A stretch of DNA of 62,098 nucleotides from Candidatus Zipacnadia bacterium (GTDB lineage Bacteria; Armatimonadota; Zipacnadia; Zipacnadales; UBA5352): assembly GCA_029820295.1 (NCBI GenBank), contig JALGVA010000007.1, forward strand, positions 1 through 62,098, written 5' to 3'. Both the position numbers and the translations under genes were made by a program. The notes under the pieces are model-generated. The model made no database searches. It had not been told where the DNA came from and saw nothing but the letters and a program-made list of their open reading frames with translations. Each line of letters opens with the position of its first letter. Within the stretch, counting starts at the first letter, position 1. Positions 234-10,308 of the stretch are shown in pieces.

Positions 234-2669
<2,436 letters not shown>

Positions 2670-2681
2670 CGCTCCACCCAC

Positions 2682-3152
2682 TTACCGCGTCTCGGCGGCC
2701 CCATCGCCGCCGATCATGTCGTCGGCCTGCTCATCTCCGTCCGGCTCGTCCGCCGGCTCCTCGAGGCCCAGCGCCGCACGCAACACCTGGCGCACCCGCT
2801 CCATGGCGTCGATGGCCTGAGTGGCAAGGAGATCGTCTGCCCACGCGTCCGGGTAGCGCATGTCCACCGCAAACTGGGTGAGCATCTCCAGCTCGTGCTG
2901 CAAAGCGTCGAGGTCCGGCACCCAATCGGCCGCCAATTGGCCCAAGACCACGAGATCGTGCGTCCGCGGCGGGACGACCTCGTGCGCCGAGAGTAGGGCC
3001 TTGAGGTGTTTCTCCACGCACTGTTGACAGTGGAAGCAGACGATCTCACTGAGAGTCGATCGGTCAAGCTGGTAGACGGTGATGTAGTCGAGGCGGGCGA
3101 TCCGGAGCCACGCCCTGACGTCATGCCCGTGCTCAGGCCGACTCCCGGTCAT
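2682..3152 (-). CDS. HEPN domain protein, partner of MNT
   Basis: A 156-residue HEPN-fold protein (PF05168-like). The conserved helix FHCQQCVEKHLKALL is followed by PPRTHDL and later by MRYPDAW, a pattern common to HEPN proteins paired with minimal nucleotidyltransferases. The RNase signature R-x(4-6)-H of active HEPN toxins is not evident after the MRYPD segment. The C-terminus is acidic. The start overlaps the end of the MNT gene by 20 nt, so the two are probably translationally coupled. In several systems such pairs act as toxin (HEPN) and antitoxin (MNT, which AMPylates its partner). Its placement between hspR and clpB is unusual. Family call is firm; the physiological role is unknown. 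Confidence 0.8.
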   Translation of the reverse strand: MTGSRPEHGHDVRAWLRIARLDYITVYQLDRSTLSEIVCFHCQQCVEKHLKALLSAHEVVPPRTHDLVVLGQLAADWVPDLDALQHELEMLTQFAVDMRYPDAWADDLLATQAIDAMERVRQVLRAALGLEEPADEPDGDEQADDMIGGDGAAETR

Positions 3153-3477
3153 AGGCAGCCACCCCCTCCTCGATGACGGTCCGCATGAACAGGCTGCGAT
3201 CCTTCAGCAGTTCCTCAACTTCCGCCGGCGTTCTCACCAGGATGTCCATCGGCAGCAATCGGGGCCGACAGAGGCTGGACACCTCGACCACGCGGTCAAT
3301 CCATCGGTCATCGGTGTCCTTGATGACCAGCACATCGAGGTCGCTGTCGGGCGAGGCGTCGCCGCGGGCGTACGAGCCGAAGATGATGATCTTGTCCGGG
3401 TCGTAGCCCTCGACGATGCGGTCGATGATGTCCCGCACCGCCTGAGGAAGCTCCACCGAACCCGCCGGCCTGGGCAT
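3133..3477 (-). CDS. MNT-type nucleotidyltransferase, partner of HEPN
   Basis: A 114-residue minimal nucleotidyltransferase (NTP_transf_2, DNA polymerase beta fold). The catalytic motif GSYARGDASPDSDLDVLV shows the G-S-x10-D-x-D signature, and a third acidic residue is likely in LLPMDILV. The ATG lies within the TGATG junction with the end of hspR, sharing one base, so translation should be coupled to the heat-shock regulator. Known relatives transfer AMP to a HEPN partner and silence it. All three catalytic acids appear present, so it is probably active. No homology search was possible, so the exact subfamily is not assigned. Confidence 0.82.
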   Translation of the reverse strand: MPRPAGSVELPQAVRDIIDRIVEGYDPDKIIIFGSYARGDASPDSDLDVLVIKDTDDRWIDRVVEVSSLCRPRLLPMDILVRTPAEVEELLKDRSLFMRTVIEEGVAAYDRESA

Positions 3478-3860
3478 CAGTTGTCTACCTCCCGCGCCTC
3501 CTCGATGCGCACCTCGATGCGGCGGCCACGCGGGCGCGTGCGACCCGGGCCCAGCGCCTTGGGGCCCTGCTGGATGTACGCGCGCATGCGGTCGATCTCG
3601 CCCTGCATGTCCTCAATCTGCTCCAGCAGCCGCAGAATGATCGCCACGCCCGCCAGGTTCACGCCCAGCTCCTGGGTGAAGCGCTGGATGCGCTGCAGCA
3701 GCTCAATGTCGGCATCGCAGTACATGCGCACACCGCTGGCGGAACGGGACGGCTCAATGAGCCCCTCGCGCTCGTACATGCGCAGCGTCTGCGGGTGGCA
3801 GTCGAGCATGCGCGCCGCCACGCCGATCTGGTATCGCGGCTCGTCTCGAGTGTGTCTCAC
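3477..3860 (-). CDS. hspR: HspR, MerR-family heat-shock repressor
   Basis: MerR-family DNA-binding protein of about 127 residues. It has the winged-helix segment YQIGVAARMLDCHPQTLRMYEREGLIEPSRS followed by a coiled coil with QRFTQELGVNLAGVAIILRL, typical of HspR. HspR represses dnaK and clpB operons by binding HAIR inverted repeats, with DnaK as corepressor in actinobacteria. A HAIR-like site overlaps the dnaK promoter at 8341-8361, which implies autoregulation of this operon. Translation could start at GTG 3860 (preceded by AGGTGAGAG) or at GTG 3869. It follows dnaJ with a gap of about 40 nt and its stop codon overlaps the MNT start. Confidence 0.9.
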   Translation of the reverse strand: MRHTRDEPRYQIGVAARMLDCHPQTLRMYEREGLIEPSRSASGVRMYCDADIELLQRIQRFTQELGVNLAGVAIILRLLEQIEDMQGEIDRMRAYIQQGPKALGPGRTRPRGRRIEVRIEEAREVDN

Positions 3861-3900
3861 GACTCTCACCTGCCAGGACCCGCCCCGCGCGGAGTCCGCG

Positions 3901-5034
3901 CTATCTCCTCATGGACTTGCGTGGGTCCTCGTCCCAGGTCTCGTCGAACTGCTCGAGCAGCTTGCGCTGCTGTCCCGTAAGCTTCTCGGGGACCGTGATC
4001 TCCACGTGCACGTACTGGTCGCCGCGGCCCCCCTCGCCCAGGTGGCGCACGCCCTTGCCCTTGAGGCGGAGCTGGTCGCCGGTCTGCGTGCCCGGCGGGA
4101 TGGTCATGGTCACGTTGCCATCGATGGTCGGCACCGTGACCTTGTCGCCCAGCGCCGCCTCGACGAAGGTGACCGGCAGGTCCAGATGGATATCGTCGCC
4201 CCGGCGCCGGAAGAGCCGGTGCGGCTGCACCTGCATGGTCAGAATCAGGTCGCCGGCCGGACCGCCGGCCACGCCGCGCCCGCCCTCGCCCGCCACGCGC
4301 ACCTTGCTGCCCGTCTCCACGCCGGGCGGGATCTTGACCCTGATGTGCCGGCGGCGCGTCGCCTCGCCCGAGCCGCGGCAGGTGGCGCAGCGGCTGGTCA
4401 CCACCTGCCCGGTCCCGTGGCACTGCGGGCAGGGGGCGCCCAGGTTGAAGAACCCCCCGCCGCTCTGCGCCTGGCCTGTGCCCCCGCAGGCGGGGCAGCT
4501 CTGCGTCTCCCCGCCCATGCCCTCGCACTCGGGGCAACGGTCGGCCAGCGTCAACGAGATCTCCTTCTCGCCGCCGTGCACCGCCTCGTCGAAGCTGATG
4601 GGCAGCTCGTACTCCACGTCATGGCCGCGGGTCGGCCCCGGCTCGGGACGCCTGCGGCTGCGGCCTGTGGTGAACTGCACGCCGCCGGGCCCCATGTCGC
4701 CGAACAGGTCGCCGAAGATGTCGCGGAACGAGCCGGCGCCGAAGTTGGTGTACACGAACTGGCCGAAGTCGCCGTTCTGCCACTGCCCACCCTCACGCGC
4801 CTGCTCCCACGCCTCACCGAACTGATCGTACTTGGCGCGCTTCTCCGGATCCTTGAGCGTCTGGTAGGCCTGGCTGATCTCCTTAAAGCGCTGCTCGGCC
4901 TGGTCATCGCCCGGGTTGACGTCCGGGTGATGCTGGCGCGCCAGCCGCCGGTAGGCCTTCGTGATCTCCTCCTGGGAGGCGTTGCGATCCACCCCCAGGA
5001 TGTCGTAGAAGTCAGGCTTGGAGTCAACCCGCAC
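3901..5034 (-). CDS. dnaJ: DnaJ co-chaperone with zinc fingers
   Basis: Hsp40 co-chaperone that delivers substrates to DnaK and stimulates its ATPase. The 377-residue protein starts with a J domain (DFYDILGVDRNAS, catalytic HPD in ARQHHPDVNPG). A Gly/Phe-rich linker follows, then four zinc-binding CxxCxGxG repeats (CPECEGMG, CPACGGTG, CPQCHGTG, CATCRGSG) and the C-terminal beta-sandwich substrate domains. This makes it a type I DnaJ. The start is GTG, six nt after the stop of the upstream hsp20. Second-to-last classical chaperone of the operon, followed by hspR. Confidence 0.95.
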   Translation of the reverse strand: MRVDSKPDFYDILGVDRNASQEEITKAYRRLARQHHPDVNPGDDQAEQRFKEISQAYQTLKDPEKRAKYDQFGEAWEQAREGGQWQNGDFGQFVYTNFGAGSFRDIFGDLFGDMGPGGVQFTTGRSRRRPEPGPTRGHDVEYELPISFDEAVHGGEKEISLTLADRCPECEGMGGETQSCPACGGTGQAQSGGGFFNLGAPCPQCHGTGQVVTSRCATCRGSGEATRRRHIRVKIPPGVETGSKVRVAGEGGRGVAGGPAGDLILTMQVQPHRLFRRRGDDIHLDLPVTFVEAALGDKVTVPTIDGNVTMTIPPGTQTGDQLRLKGKGVRHLGEGGRGDQYVHVEITVPEKLTGQQRKLLEQFDETWDEDPRKSMRR

Positions 5035-5040
5035 GATGGC

Positions 5041-5472
5041 TCACTGTCCGATCTCTATCCTGACGCGCCCGCCCGCCTGCCGCCGGCCCACACGGACCGT
5101 CAACACGCCGTCGGCGAGCGTGGCGCTGATCTCACTCATGGCCGCATCCGAGGGCAGCCGTACCGAGCGCGCGAAGCGTCCCAGCGAGCGCTCGCCGCGC
5201 AGCCGTCGGGCCTCCGCCATCTCACCGGGCATGCCCGTCTCCCCGCGCACGTGCAGCACCCCGTCCTCGGCGACCGCCTCCACGTCCTCGCGCCGGACCC
5301 CGGGCAGGTCCAGGCGCACGACGTAGGCGTCGTCGCTCGCCTGCAGGTCCATCGGCGGGCGCCACGCGACGGACGGCGCCATCGGCCGGCGGCGCTGAAG
5401 CTGCATGGCTTCGTGCATCCGGCGCATCAGCCGCCGCATCTCGTTGAACGGATGGTTGGTCGGTCTGCGCAC
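5041..5472 (-). CDS. hsp20: Hsp20/alpha-crystallin small heat-shock protein (second copy)
   Basis: Small heat-shock protein holdase of 143 residues when started at GTG 5472, which is preceded by GGAGGAGACGGAG. An upstream in-frame extension to 5688 is rejected because it reads through a palindromic intergenic repeat. The N-terminus is basic (MRRLMRRMHEAM), followed by the alpha-crystallin domain (PPMDLQASDDAYVVRLDLPGV, then ADGVLTVRV) and a short tail RVRIEIGQ. Its length equals that of the other Hsp20 in this operon but the sequences are clearly divergent, so this is an old duplication or separate acquisition. It lies between a repeat element and dnaJ. Confidence 0.9.
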   Translation of the reverse strand: MRRPTNHPFNEMRRLMRRMHEAMQLQRRRPMAPSVAWRPPMDLQASDDAYVVRLDLPGVRREDVEAVAEDGVLHVRGETGMPGEMAEARRLRGERSLGRFARSVRLPSDAAMSEISATLADGVLTVRVGRRQAGGRVRIEIGQ

Positions 5473-5514
5473 TGCTCTCCGTCTCCTCCACTCATGTTGC
5501 GGCCGCGTCGGGAC

Positions 5515-5684
5515 GGGCCTCCCCTGCCGACCGCTCCGCGGTCGTCTGCCCCCTCCGTTCCGGAGGGGGCTTGGGGCACGCGAAGACCATGGCTCTCTCA
5601 ACCGTCGCCATGGCGCGCCGTTGTCGTTGCCCTCTCCGGAACGGAGAGGGCGCCCCCGAGCAAGGCTCGGGGCGGGGGTGGCCC
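5515..5684. repeat. Palindromic intergenic repeat element, copy 1
   Basis: About 170 bp between the two hsp20 genes. Ends are inverted (GGGCCTCCCC at 5515, GGGGGTGGCCC ending at 5684). Inside are two 23-bp palindromes, 5548-5570 and 5629-5651, whose cores CTCCGTTCCGGAG and CTCCGGAACGGAG are reverse complements of each other, like paired REP units. Flanking mini-hairpins lie at 5529-5543 and 5656-5672. The same architecture recurs at 9984-10171, 11352-11462 and, as a half, 14608-14650. Here it would be transcribed inside the heat-shock operon. Confidence 0.75.
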
Positions 5685-5744
5685 GCACATCGCCATCCGC
5701 ACTGCGGGCTGGAAGCCCACCCCACAGATAAGCCTGCAGTCAAG

Positions 5745-6176
5745 CTACTGCTCCTGCGTCCCGCTGACCTCAATCTCCCGCGTGCCCGCGCGCCGCCGCA
5801 CGCTCACCTCCAGCAGCCCGTCCTCGAGCCGCGCATCGATCGTGTCGGGGTCGAGGTGCCAGGCCAGGGAGAACGAGCGGCTGAAGCTGCCCACCGGGCG
5901 CTCGCGCAGGTAGTACTGCCCGCCATCCTCGTCCGCGCGTTCGCCGCGGATGGTCACGACGTTGTCGTCCACGCTGACCGCGATCTGCTCCCGGCTCATC
6001 CCGGGCGCCTCCACCAGGATCACCACGCGGTCGTCGGTGGCGAGGATGTCCACGGGTGGGCTGAAGTCCGGCGCGCGCTCGGCCTGCTCGGGCACGAAGC
6101 TCTCGTCGAGCAGCCGGTAGAGCCGGTCCCTCAGCTCCAGAAACTGTTGTGTCGGGTCAGCCCATGTCGGACGCAT
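5745..6176 (-). CDS. hsp20: Hsp20/alpha-crystallin small heat-shock protein (first copy)
   Basis: Small heat-shock protein of 143 residues. The alpha-crystallin domain spans roughly residues 40-137: SPPVDILATDDRVVILVEAPGM, then RGERADEDGGQYYLRERPVGSFSRSFSL, then LEDGLLEVSVRRRAG. It forms oligomers that hold unfolding proteins for DnaK/ClpB. It sits directly downstream of dnaK (gap about 87 nt), in the place where grpE is found in many HspR-controlled operons. A 170-bp repeat separates it from the second hsp20. Confidence 0.93.
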   Translation of the reverse strand: MRPTWADPTQQFLELRDRLYRLLDESFVPEQAERAPDFSPPVDILATDDRVVILVEAPGMSREQIAVSVDDNVVTIRGERADEDGGQYYLRERPVGSFSRSFSLAWHLDPDTIDARLEDGLLEVSVRRRAGTREIEVSGTQEQ

Positions 6177-6263
6177 CTGGTGCCTCCGTCTGACGATTGC
6201 CTATCCGGGCCCCGGGCGGGCGGCGCAGGTCCTCGCCCGCCCGGGTATCTCAGGGCCGAGGCG

Positions 6264-8153
<1,890 letters not shown>

Positions 8154-8291
8154 TGTCTGTCACACCTTTCTGGTGATGTCACCGCCCGTCGCGTGGCCGG
8201 GATGGCCCGATACGGCGCGGCCTGTCGTCTCAGATGTATCCCCGGCGCCAGGCCCGGGCCGCCGGGGTCGATTTCGCTTTGATAGCCCTAC

Positions 8292-8310
8292 ACGCCCCGA
8301 TTCGGGGCGT
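8292..8310 (-). other. Hairpin in dnaK leader
   Basis: ACGCCCCGA/TTCGGGGCGT is a near-perfect palindrome lying about 15-35 nt downstream of the predicted dnaK transcription start, within the roughly 170-nt untranslated leader. It is followed by no T-run in either direction, so it is not an obvious terminator. It could affect mRNA stability or temperature-dependent translation; the role is unknown. Confidence 0.45.
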
Positions 8311-8331
8311 TTCCGGCTTGTATCGAGCGTT

Positions 8332-8360
8332 AGTATATCACTTGAGCGCAATGCTGTCAA
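8332..8360 (-). promoter_or_regulatory. Sigma-70 type promoter of the dnaK operon
   Basis: Reading the minus strand, TTGACA (8355-8360), a 17-nt spacer and TATACT (8332-8337) form a near-consensus housekeeping promoter. The predicted start lies near 8325, giving a leader of about 170 nt before the dnaK GTG. A HAIR-like inverted repeat covers the -35 box and most of the spacer. Confidence 0.85.
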
Positions 8361-8361
8361 C
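8341..8361. promoter_or_regulatory. HAIR-like operator for HspR
   Basis: CTTGAGC-N7-TGTCAAC matches the HAIR consensus CTTGAGT-N7-ACTCAAG perfectly in six of seven positions of the left arm and in four of seven of the right arm. The right arm is constrained by also being the -35 TTGACA box on the other strand. Position over the dnaK promoter and presence of hspR in the same operon support the call. Confidence 0.7.
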
Positions 8362-8542
8362 CCATCTGCAGCAGGAATCTGAAGGTGGTCGCCGCTCCTG
8401 TGAACGGCCAGGCCTGGCCGACGGGCGGACGCTCAAGCGCCATCCGGCGGGCAGGCCACTTGCCGGGCACGAAGGACCATCCCGCCCCGGCGCGGAACCC
8501 CTCCGCCGCAGACTACGCCTGCGCCCGCGAGAGGAGAGCATC

Positions 8543-9964
8543 GTGAACGTCGTCACCATCGTCCTCGACACCTTCCGCAACGACATCGTCGGGCCCGGCA
8601 AGAAGCTCAGCCACTGCCGCACGCCCTACCTCGATGACTTCTATGCGCGCTCGGTGGCCTTCGAGGGCGCCTACGGCGAGGGCCAGCCCACGCTGCAGAT
8701 GCGCCGCGCGTTCTTCACCGGCCGGCGCACCTTCCCGTGGGTCTACAACTTCGACCGCCGCGGCCACTGGCATCACCAGCCCGGCTGGCACGAGATCCCG
8801 CCCCACCAGGACACGCTCGCGGAGATCCTCACCAGGCGCGGCGTCTACACCGGCCTGGTCGCAGATGTGTATCACATGTTCAAGCCCACCATGAACTACT
8901 CGCGCGGCTTCGCGACGCTGGACTTCATCCGCGGCCAGGAGTCCGACAACTGGAAGCCCTGCCGCCCGGAGCTGATCGAGGACGAGATGCGCAGGCGCGT
9001 GCGCGAGCCCATCTCCTGGAAGCGCCACGCGACGCTGGTGCAGTATCTGTCCAACATGGTCGGGCGCGAGACCGAGGACGACTACCTGTGCGCGCGCGTG
9101 GCCACCAGCGCCTGCGAGTGGCTCGATGCCGCCCACCGCAATGCCCCGTTCCTCCTGTGGGTCGAGATGTTCGACCCGCACGAGCCCTGGGACCCGCCCA
9201 GGCGCTATGCCGACGAGTACACTCCCGGCTACGAGGGCATCGACCCGGTCTTCCCCGGCGCGGCCTGGGAGGGCGGTGACCCCAGCGACGAGGAGATCGA
9301 GCGCATCAAGGCGCTCTACCTCGGCGAGGTGACCTTCGTTGACAGGCAGGTCGGGCGCATCTTCGAGAAGCTCGATGAGCTGAAGCTGTGGGATGACACC
9401 GTCGTGCTGGTGCTGTCGGACCACGGCACCGAGCTGCTCGACCACACCGGCTTCGGCAAGGGTGGCGGCAACATGCGCACCTACAACACCGGCTTCGTCT
9501 GGTACATGCGCCATCCCGACGGCCCCGAGGGCGTGGTGGTCGATGCCTACGTGCAGAGCCACGACGTGATGCCCACGCTGCTGACCATGCTGGATGTGCC
9601 GCACCGCTGCGAGGGCATGGACATCTGGCCGCTGGCGACCGGCGAGGCGGAGGTATTGCGGCCCTTCATAGTGAACGGATGGGCCGGCGCGGCGACCGGC
9701 AACGCGGCGGGCTGGGCGTCGGTGATGGACGACGCGTGGCTCTACTCGTGCCCGGTCGGCCGCGATGACCCCGAACCGATGCTGTTCGCACTGCCGGATC
9801 AGGACACGAACGTGCACGACGCGCACCCGGACGTGGTCGCGCTGCAGCGGCGGCGCATCGAGGGCGTGGTCAATCAGCCGCTGGACAAGCTGCGCTTCAA
9901 CGAGGTCTGCGACCCGGCGCCGCCTCCCTTCCATCAGTGGCTGGACGCGGGCGGGTGGGATTGA
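8543..9964 (+). CDS. Sulfatase-fold hydrolase with Thr at the nucleophile position
   Basis: Alkaline phosphatase superfamily enzyme of 473 residues. The N-terminus NVVTIVLDTFRND carries a metal-binding Asp, and LSDHGTELLDHTGFGKGG near the middle to C-terminal part carries the conserved Asp-His and downstream His. The usual sulfatase signature C/S-x-P-x-R is replaced. Aligning on the following TGR places Thr50 (PTLQMRRAFFTGR) at the nucleophile, so no formylglycine can form. It may be a phosphodi- or monoesterase-like enzyme rather than a sulfatase. GTG start at 8543 with GAGGAGAG upstream; an in-frame extension to 8234 would cross the dnaK promoter and is rejected. No signal peptide, so cytoplasmic. 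Divergent from dnaK. Confidence 0.82.
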   Translation: MNVVTIVLDTFRNDIVGPGKKLSHCRTPYLDDFYARSVAFEGAYGEGQPTLQMRRAFFTGRRTFPWVYNFDRRGHWHHQPGWHEIPPHQDTLAEILTRRGVYTGLVADVYHMFKPTMNYSRGFATLDFIRGQESDNWKPCRPELIEDEMRRRVREPISWKRHATLVQYLSNMVGRETEDDYLCARVATSACEWLDAAHRNAPFLLWVEMFDPHEPWDPPRRYADEYTPGYEGIDPVFPGAAWEGGDPSDEEIERIKALYLGEVTFVDRQVGRIFEKLDELKLWDDTVVLVLSDHGTELLDHTGFGKGGGNMRTYNTGFVWYMRHPDGPEGVVVDAYVQSHDVMPTLLTMLDVPHRCEGMDIWPLATGEAEVLRPFIVNGWAGAATGNAAGWASVMDDAWLYSCPVGRDDPEPMLFALPDQDTNVHDAHPDVVALQRRRIEGVVNQPLDKLRFNEVCDPAPPPFHQWLDAGGWD

Positions 9965-10308
9965 CGACCGGGCGGCTCTGTTCGGGCCTCCCCCGCCCTC
10001 GCGCTTACGCTGGCCGATGCTTCGCATCGGGCGTTGCGCACTCGGGCACCCCCTCCGTTCCGGAGGGGGTCGGCGACGGGCTATCGGGCTGGCCGCGCCC
10101 TTCTCGCTGAGCCGAGAATGGTGGTGGGCTCCCCCTCTCCGGGACGGAGAGGGGGCCGGGGGGTGAGGCCCGGCCCACCTCTCAACTTGCGGGCGGTTTC
10201 GCAACCTGGTACTCGAACGGCGGGCGCGCCCGATGCTCTGTATCGGCGGGAAGCGCGCCCCTCCGTACGGCAAGGCACAACCGTCGGCACCAATCAGGAG
10301 GATGACGA
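9965..10308. other. Intergenic region holding repeat copy 2
   Basis: No gene is supported in these 344 bp. Most of it is the palindromic repeat at 9984-10171. The remaining 140 bp before the next start are GC-rich with an AGGAGG ribosome binding site at about 10297-10302 for the oxidoreductase. Confidence 0.7.
9984..10171. repeat. Palindromic intergenic repeat element, copy 2
   Basis: About 188 bp with inverted ends (GGGCCTCCCCC and GGGTGAGGCCC). It contains the same two oppositely oriented palindromes as copy 1, at 10048-10070 (CCTCCGTTCCGGAGG core) and 10131-10155 (CTCTCCGGGACGGAGAG core). The spacer between them differs from copy 1, so the palindromes and ends are what is conserved. Confidence 0.75.

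Follow-up and report, generated by a model that had tools for sequence, protein, structure and literature searches.

What might a nucleotidyltransferase (MNT) and a HEPN protein, a pair of the kind that forms probably the most abundant type of toxin–antitoxin system in prokaryotes and one whose physiological role is obscure (PMC7641770), be doing inside a heat-shock operon? The question is raised by positions 2682-3477 of a 62,098-nucleotide stretch of DNA from a Candidatus Zipacnadia bacterium (contig JALGVA010000007.1; hereafter the window, to which all plain coordinates refer), where the two genes lie between hspR and clpB. The pair keeps this place in most of the family genomes compared, downstream of a putative HspR operator, and the reading favoured here, tentatively and at somewhat under even confidence, is that of a captured toxin–antitoxin-type pair which may serve as a chaperone-coupled translation brake.

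Gene order and its distribution

The first 8.4 kb of the window carry, on the minus strand, the order dnaK–hsp20–hsp20–dnaJ–hspR–MNT–HEPN–clpB (Table 1), with tight spacing on the one strand. The hspR stop and the MNT start share one nucleotide (TGATG) and HEPN begins inside MNT, 20 nt ahead of the MNT stop, overlaps which a first-pass annotation of the sequence had reported and which are exact; in the junction sequences a Shine-Dalgarno-like GGGAGGT for MNT sits in the hspR 3' end. That annotation also saw the pair as built into the operon, and conservation of the gene order across the family (Candidatus Zipacnadia or WS1, Armatimonadota) bears this out. Seven of the ten family genomes compared have hspR–MNT–HEPN–clpB (G000, that of the window, with G024, G091, G152, G156, G207 and G208; G, L and C numbers denote genomes, loci and contigs), so that the order is not unique to one contig, and its recurrence in six further genomes means that neither chance nor an assembly artefact accounts for it. 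In G152 the pair is in tandem (MNT–HEPN–MNT–HEPN) and in G091 the second HEPN has been lost to leave MNT–HEPN–MNT, while G098 has a decayed locus with a truncated MNT and HEPN gone, and G069 and G206 have neither gene there. MNT precedes HEPN in all linked loci that hold both. At the family loci MNT occurs without HEPN twice (the second G091 copy and the G098 remnant) and HEPN never without MNT, which is consistent, on few cases, with HEPN being the harmful partner.

Outside the family no MNT–HEPN was found beside hspR in samples of 41 genomes from the order and 201 from the phylum, none of 74 more distant MNT loci adjoins hspR, and in 30 Chloroflexota loci profile searches turned up neither an MNT nor a HEPN in the roughly 1.5 kb around hspR; these surveys are samples, and other lineages may still carry the arrangement. 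Sister families hold other genes in the same hspR–clpB slot, namely DUF2007 proteins, an alpha-acetolactate decarboxylase and a 468-aa open reading frame (ORF) without a Pfam match, and so the slot is permissive and a function cannot be established from position alone. In sister families of the order the slot contains between one and four small genes that are DUF2007-like (‘putative prokaryotic signal transducing protein’; loci L050, L051, L052, L053, L054, L055, L056, L061, L064, L065 and L067), the three tested all scoring above the Pfam cut-off. Two such slots add a long ORF, of which the one tested (L050) is the decarboxylase; the 468-aa ORF (L058:78-1484, minus strand) occupies the slot in G077.

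Promoter and putative operator

A consensus scan finds one sigma-70-type promoter, some 180 nt ahead of dnaK, as the sole match in 2000-8700, and no internal sigma-70-like promoter or terminator between dnaK and clpB. Over the −35 and spacer of this promoter lies an inverted repeat, the putative operator, whose core, TTGA-N11-TCAA, has the same spacing as the HAIR element, whose consensus is CTTGAGT-N7-ACTCAAG (PMC6102357). The full Streptomyces HAIR pattern has no match at dnaK; the relaxed core TTGA-N11-TCAAG does match, and its perfect form occurs once only in the window, at the dnaK promoter. The repeat aligns across the dnaK promoters of nine genomes and is conserved in all of them; a sister family contributes two of these genomes, and another, G206, has no MNT–HEPN. 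In the operon stretches searched, including the hspR-to-clpB interval, the exact core is absent outside the dnaK promoter. Cores with one mismatch do exist, one of them within the MNT gene (3319-3339), as expected by chance, and across the G000 genome their count does not rise above the control (99 vs 127), so that single sites elsewhere mean little and the case for the operator is one of position and conservation. A second, near-perfect HAIR-like repeat, CTTGATAGTATTGCTATCAAT, is present on another contig (G000:C86:17996-18016; L194:2497-2517), immediately upstream of a lone hsp20 gene.

Because the HAIR-like operator sits in the dnaK promoter and no exact-core site lies between hspR and clpB, MNT–HEPN is probably under heat-shock control, and the rise in expression on heat shock foreseen by the first-pass annotation is thus likely. 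One HspR-repressed transcript for the whole operon would be the simplest reading of these sequences.

Origin, duplication and turnover

Set against 48 other MNTs, all but one of the nine linked MNTs group in one clade, with support 100/99; these eight come from six genomes and include both copies each from G152 and G091. The G208 pair falls outside this clade, with a single clade of all linked pairs not rejected by the approximately unbiased test (p=0.32 for MNT, 0.40 for HEPN). In a tree of concatenated DnaK, DnaJ, HspR and ClpB the G069 and G098 losses fall within the crown group. G069 retains the hspR tail, a ribosome-binding-site-like GTGAGGT and the TGA, which looks like the relic of a lost pair, the alternative being a conserved HspR C-terminus. 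The duplications are informative about what was copied: in both G091 and G152 the second MNT follows a copied hspR 3' end (GAGGACGCGCGGGAGGT...CTGATG), a tail of 26-28 nt plus TGATG, and therefore the duplicated unit was hspR-tail, MNT and HEPN with the coupling signal included.

The pair turns over more rapidly than the operon that hosts it: between G156 and G024, which by ClpB are the closest (89%), identity is only 55% in MNT and 36% in HEPN. Nonsynonymous rates (dN) stay below synonymous ones (dS) in all pairs, with dS near saturation, so the ratios are rough. The fast turnover is read here as probably reflecting tandem copies that were differentially retained or exchanged while under purifying selection. 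The second G091 MNT (L039:2622-2963; L039/L155) is like the first G091 MNT in its N-terminal part and like the G207 MNT in its C-terminal part, as if recombined. In G152, a genome of the same genus as that of the window, a frameshift accompanied by a short direct duplication (..IDRMREHIE..) divides hspR (L148, about 1927-2339, minus strand), and could be genuine or else a product of misassembly.

The MNT and HEPN proteins

The catalytic set of the MNT is complete, with GSX10DXD (G34 S35 ... D46 D48) and a third carboxylate, D78; among 43 MNT sequences the first four are invariant and D78 is kept in at least 90%. The AlphaFold2 (AF2) model has a predicted local distance difference test score (pLDDT) of 92.6, and its best match is the Legionella pneumophila MNT antitoxin 8xeo (Z 11.3, root-mean-square deviation (rmsd) 2.7, 96 residues aligned), a further one being 1no5 (Z 10.5). 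The protein is also similar to the PADLOC candidate PDC-S09.

HEPN matches PF05168 (HEPN-T, of the sacsin/TT1696 type) at 79.5 bits against a gathering score of 22, with no NCBIfam or PADLOC match. Its AF2 model (pLDDT 87.8) is a five-helix fold (12-28, 35-56, 67-74, 79-97 and 107-127), nearest to TT1696 (Z 17.1, rmsd 2.1, 119 aligned; sequence match E=1.7e-21, profile A3), then to the HEPN of sacsin (Z 15.6), with HepT-type toxins more distant (Z 9-10). In 49 aligned HEPNs K48, K51, H65, R99 and Y100 are invariant and Q43, Q44 and E47 are kept in at least 90%; Y100 lies in an R-Y-P loop ahead of the last helix of the model. Contigs C40, C172 and C271 of G000 carry six more PF05168 HEPN genes, several adjacent to each other.

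At the family position of the R-x(4-6)-H motif the protein reads R99-YPDAWA-D106, with no H at 104-106, so the motif is indeed missing as first annotated. The conclusion then drawn, that the pair may be regulatory rather than toxic, is not supported. The PF05168 family is often without the motif, and its absence therefore does not point to a regulatory role without toxicity; it is a trait of the HEPN-T branch. Several PF05168 members have D in place of the motif H, and another conserved H could contribute (PMC3710099, Table 1), HEPNs lacking R-x(4-6)-H have tested as toxins (PMC3710099), and in an L. pneumophila HEPN the motif R and H are dispensable and the catalytic site is a Q44/E47 magnesium site (PMC11586414). 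Q44 and E47 of the present HEPN are the same residues with the same numbering in the same helix (helix 2), which is suggestive as a comparison of numbering and helix only.

Comparison with known systems

The type VII HEPN–MNT systems (HepT/MntA, such as Shewanella SO_3166/SO_3165 and those of Aphanizomenon and Legionella lpg) share the gene order, with MNT directly 5' of HEPN and overlapping it, an MNT with GSX10DXD, for which the Legionella protein is the best structural match, and the HEPN fold at Z 9-10. They differ in that the HEPN here is of the PF05168/HEPN-T and not the DUF86 type and has no RX4HXY, and in that the pair lies inside an HspR-controlled chaperone operon instead of being free-standing. 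For the acceptor Tyr that type VII systems have in a loop ahead of the final helix (Y105 of 8XDJ), Y100 here, in a loop ahead of helix 107-127, is a candidate by position. Because RX4HXY is missing and the MNT scores 31.7 bits against the MntA model NF047752, short of the cut-off of 60, the pair is not filed under type VII; it is a known kind of protein pair that may nonetheless work like one.

The closest relatives of the HEPN, in sequence (TT1696) and fold (TT1696, sacsin), are among the HEPN-T structures TT1696, ST0689 and TM0613 and the sacsin HEPN. Sacsin itself couples its HEPN to a DnaJ domain, a further link between HEPN and chaperones. None of these four is in an hspR/clpB operon, and the prokaryotic ones have no described function in the sources consulted. 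The HspR/HAIR dnaK operons of Streptomyces, Helicobacter and Campylobacter share with this one an hspR within its own chaperone operon and a HAIR-type repeat in the promoter (PMC6102357); descriptions of them mention no toxin–antitoxin pair, and here MNT–HEPN stands between hspR and clpB. The literature search found no publication linking HspR with HEPN. The fixed place of MNT–HEPN in an HspR-controlled chaperone operon, together with the duplicated coupling junction, is new, no prior report having been found in the literature searched.

How the pair might function

In Streptomyces HspR requires DnaK as its partner, and so unfolded protein frees HspR; the same would be expected here. A translation brake coupled to the chaperones could operate along these lines. 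The ancestor of the family, or of most of it, would have captured a HEPN–MNT pair between hspR and clpB and kept it as a heat-shock gene, with transcription from the HspR-repressed dnaK promoter. Unfolded protein occupying DnaK would lead to release of HspR, and the chaperones, hspR, MNT, HEPN and clpB would then be made jointly. The antitoxin would be made first, because the ribosome-binding site for MNT would lie inside the hspR 3' end and that for HEPN inside MNT. MNT might silence HEPN by addition of AMP, perhaps at Y100 of the R-Y-P loop; under severe stress an MNT that is misfolded, aggregated or short of ATP could leave HEPN free to cut or block RNA, so slowing translation until DnaK and ClpB restore MNT and the brake ends. 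What this account builds on in the sequence is the order and overlap of the genes, the operator, an MNT with its catalytic residues intact, purifying selection and inheritance mostly within a single clade; what it would entail is one transcript, induction by heat, AMPylation, RNase activity and the brake with its release. MNT–HEPN pairs have been proposed to arrest translation in unfolded-protein stress, HEPN being exposed once MNT misfolds or is lost, which would give chaperones the chance to clear aggregates (PMC3710099), and the layout here, an antitoxin-type gene followed by a toxin-type gene, chaperones on both sides and a heat-shock operator ahead, is what that idea would predict.

Several points weigh against the brake. 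Three of the ten family genomes have lost the pair or keep it only in decayed form, so the operon can do without it; the G208 pair may have been inserted independently; MNT and HEPN agree only loosely with the species tree; and the HEPN lacks the RX4HXY of characterised type VII toxins just as the MNT falls short of the MntA model.

The most serious competitor, less probable than the brake and still to be reckoned with, is a hitch-hiking addiction or defence cassette, a mobile MNT–HEPN in an insertion-tolerant gap that is kept for its addiction or anti-phage value and has no heat-shock role. The other genes put in the slot by sister families would suit such a cassette, as would the duplication, recombination, decay and loss of the pair inside the family, the fast evolution of HEPN, the six additional HEPN genes in G000 and the likeness of MNT to PDC-S09. 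It fits poorly with one clade at one site across the family crown and dN below dS, with a pair translationally coupled to hspR through a junction that was itself duplicated, and with no mobile-element genes being seen at the junctions.

The favoured brake could also be taken further, to a proteostasis-gated toxin–antitoxin in which the folding state of MNT, kept by DnaK and ClpB of the same operon, would be the sensor, the operon would make both its own brake and the release, and tandem copies would diversify the RNA targets; in this full form the proposal is on the unlikely side. Considerably less probable is a non-catalytic brake, with HEPN binding rRNA, tRNA or mRNA uncut and MNT controlling the binding: a mode of this sort has been proposed for HEPNs without R-x(4-6)-H (PMC3710099), as this one is, and the invariant basic residues K48, K51, H65 and R99 would serve it, against which stand the conserved Q44 and E47 with their numbering and helix likeness to the Legionella catalytic metal residues. 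Least probable of all is the chaperone tuning of the first-pass annotation, in which HEPN would be the substrate-binding subunit of a complex that AMPylates HspR, DnaK or ClpB (modification of HspR or ClpB is possible, its argument being the neighbourhood), since for all that the MNT is catalytically complete, its genes adjoin hspR and clpB and enzymes like kanamycin nucleotidyltransferase use a HEPN as the domain that binds substrate (PMC3710099), the substrate in studied HEPN–MNT systems is HEPN itself (PMC11586414, PMC7641770), hspR and clpB are no less conserved in genomes that lack the pair, and G091 has an MNT without HEPN.

Gene calls and other features

The name HspR is given because of a near miss with the NCBIfam model, 103.6 bits being just under the curated cut-off of 105, together with the gene setting. 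For the second hsp20 the real start is probably farther downstream, at about 5473, and for clpB an upstream GTG at 2681 is a less likely alternative start. No RNA family of Rfam matched in the window. Between the two hsp20 genes (5510-5740) there is a GC-rich inverted-repeat-like sequence, CCCCCTCCGTTCCGGAGGGGG, with a related copy, which could have an effect on the operon transcript; a sequence resembling it occurs near 10200, perhaps as a dispersed palindromic element.

Table 1. Features of the chaperone operon, in order of transcription (positions in the window).
Feature	Position	Strand	Evidence or remark
dnaK-operon promoter, TTGACA-N17-TATACT, extended -10 (TG)	8332..8361	-	sigma-70 scan 11/12
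putative HspR operator, HAIR-like, GTTGACA-N7-GCTCAAG	8341-8361		overlaps dnaK promoter
dnaK	6264..8153	-	80-88% identity to other loci of the family
hsp20 (first)	5745..6176	-	PF00011 E=9e-19
hsp20 (second)	5041..5688	-	PF00011 E=6.6e-18, match at residues 116-206 of the long ORF
dnaJ	3901..5034	-	PF01556, PF00226, PF00684
hspR	3477..3869	-	MerR_1 6.8e-19; HspR NCBIfam 103.6 bits
MNT, 114 aa	3133..3477	-	PF01909 E=1.6e-10
HEPN, 156 aa	2682..3152	-	PF05168 E=2.8e-22
clpB	234..2669	-	ClpB domains, PF07724 5.5e-71 and others

Significance

A link between such pairs and heat or unfolded protein was proposed in 2013 by Anantharaman et al. in general terms, from general distribution only (PMC3710099). 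At the locus described here MNT–HEPN is tied, across a family, to a chaperone operon with a putative HspR operator, which makes that proposal directly testable. If the favoured reading is true, these bacteria would switch on a brake on translation along with the protein-repair chaperones as their proteins unfold, and the co-encoded chaperones would in turn release it.
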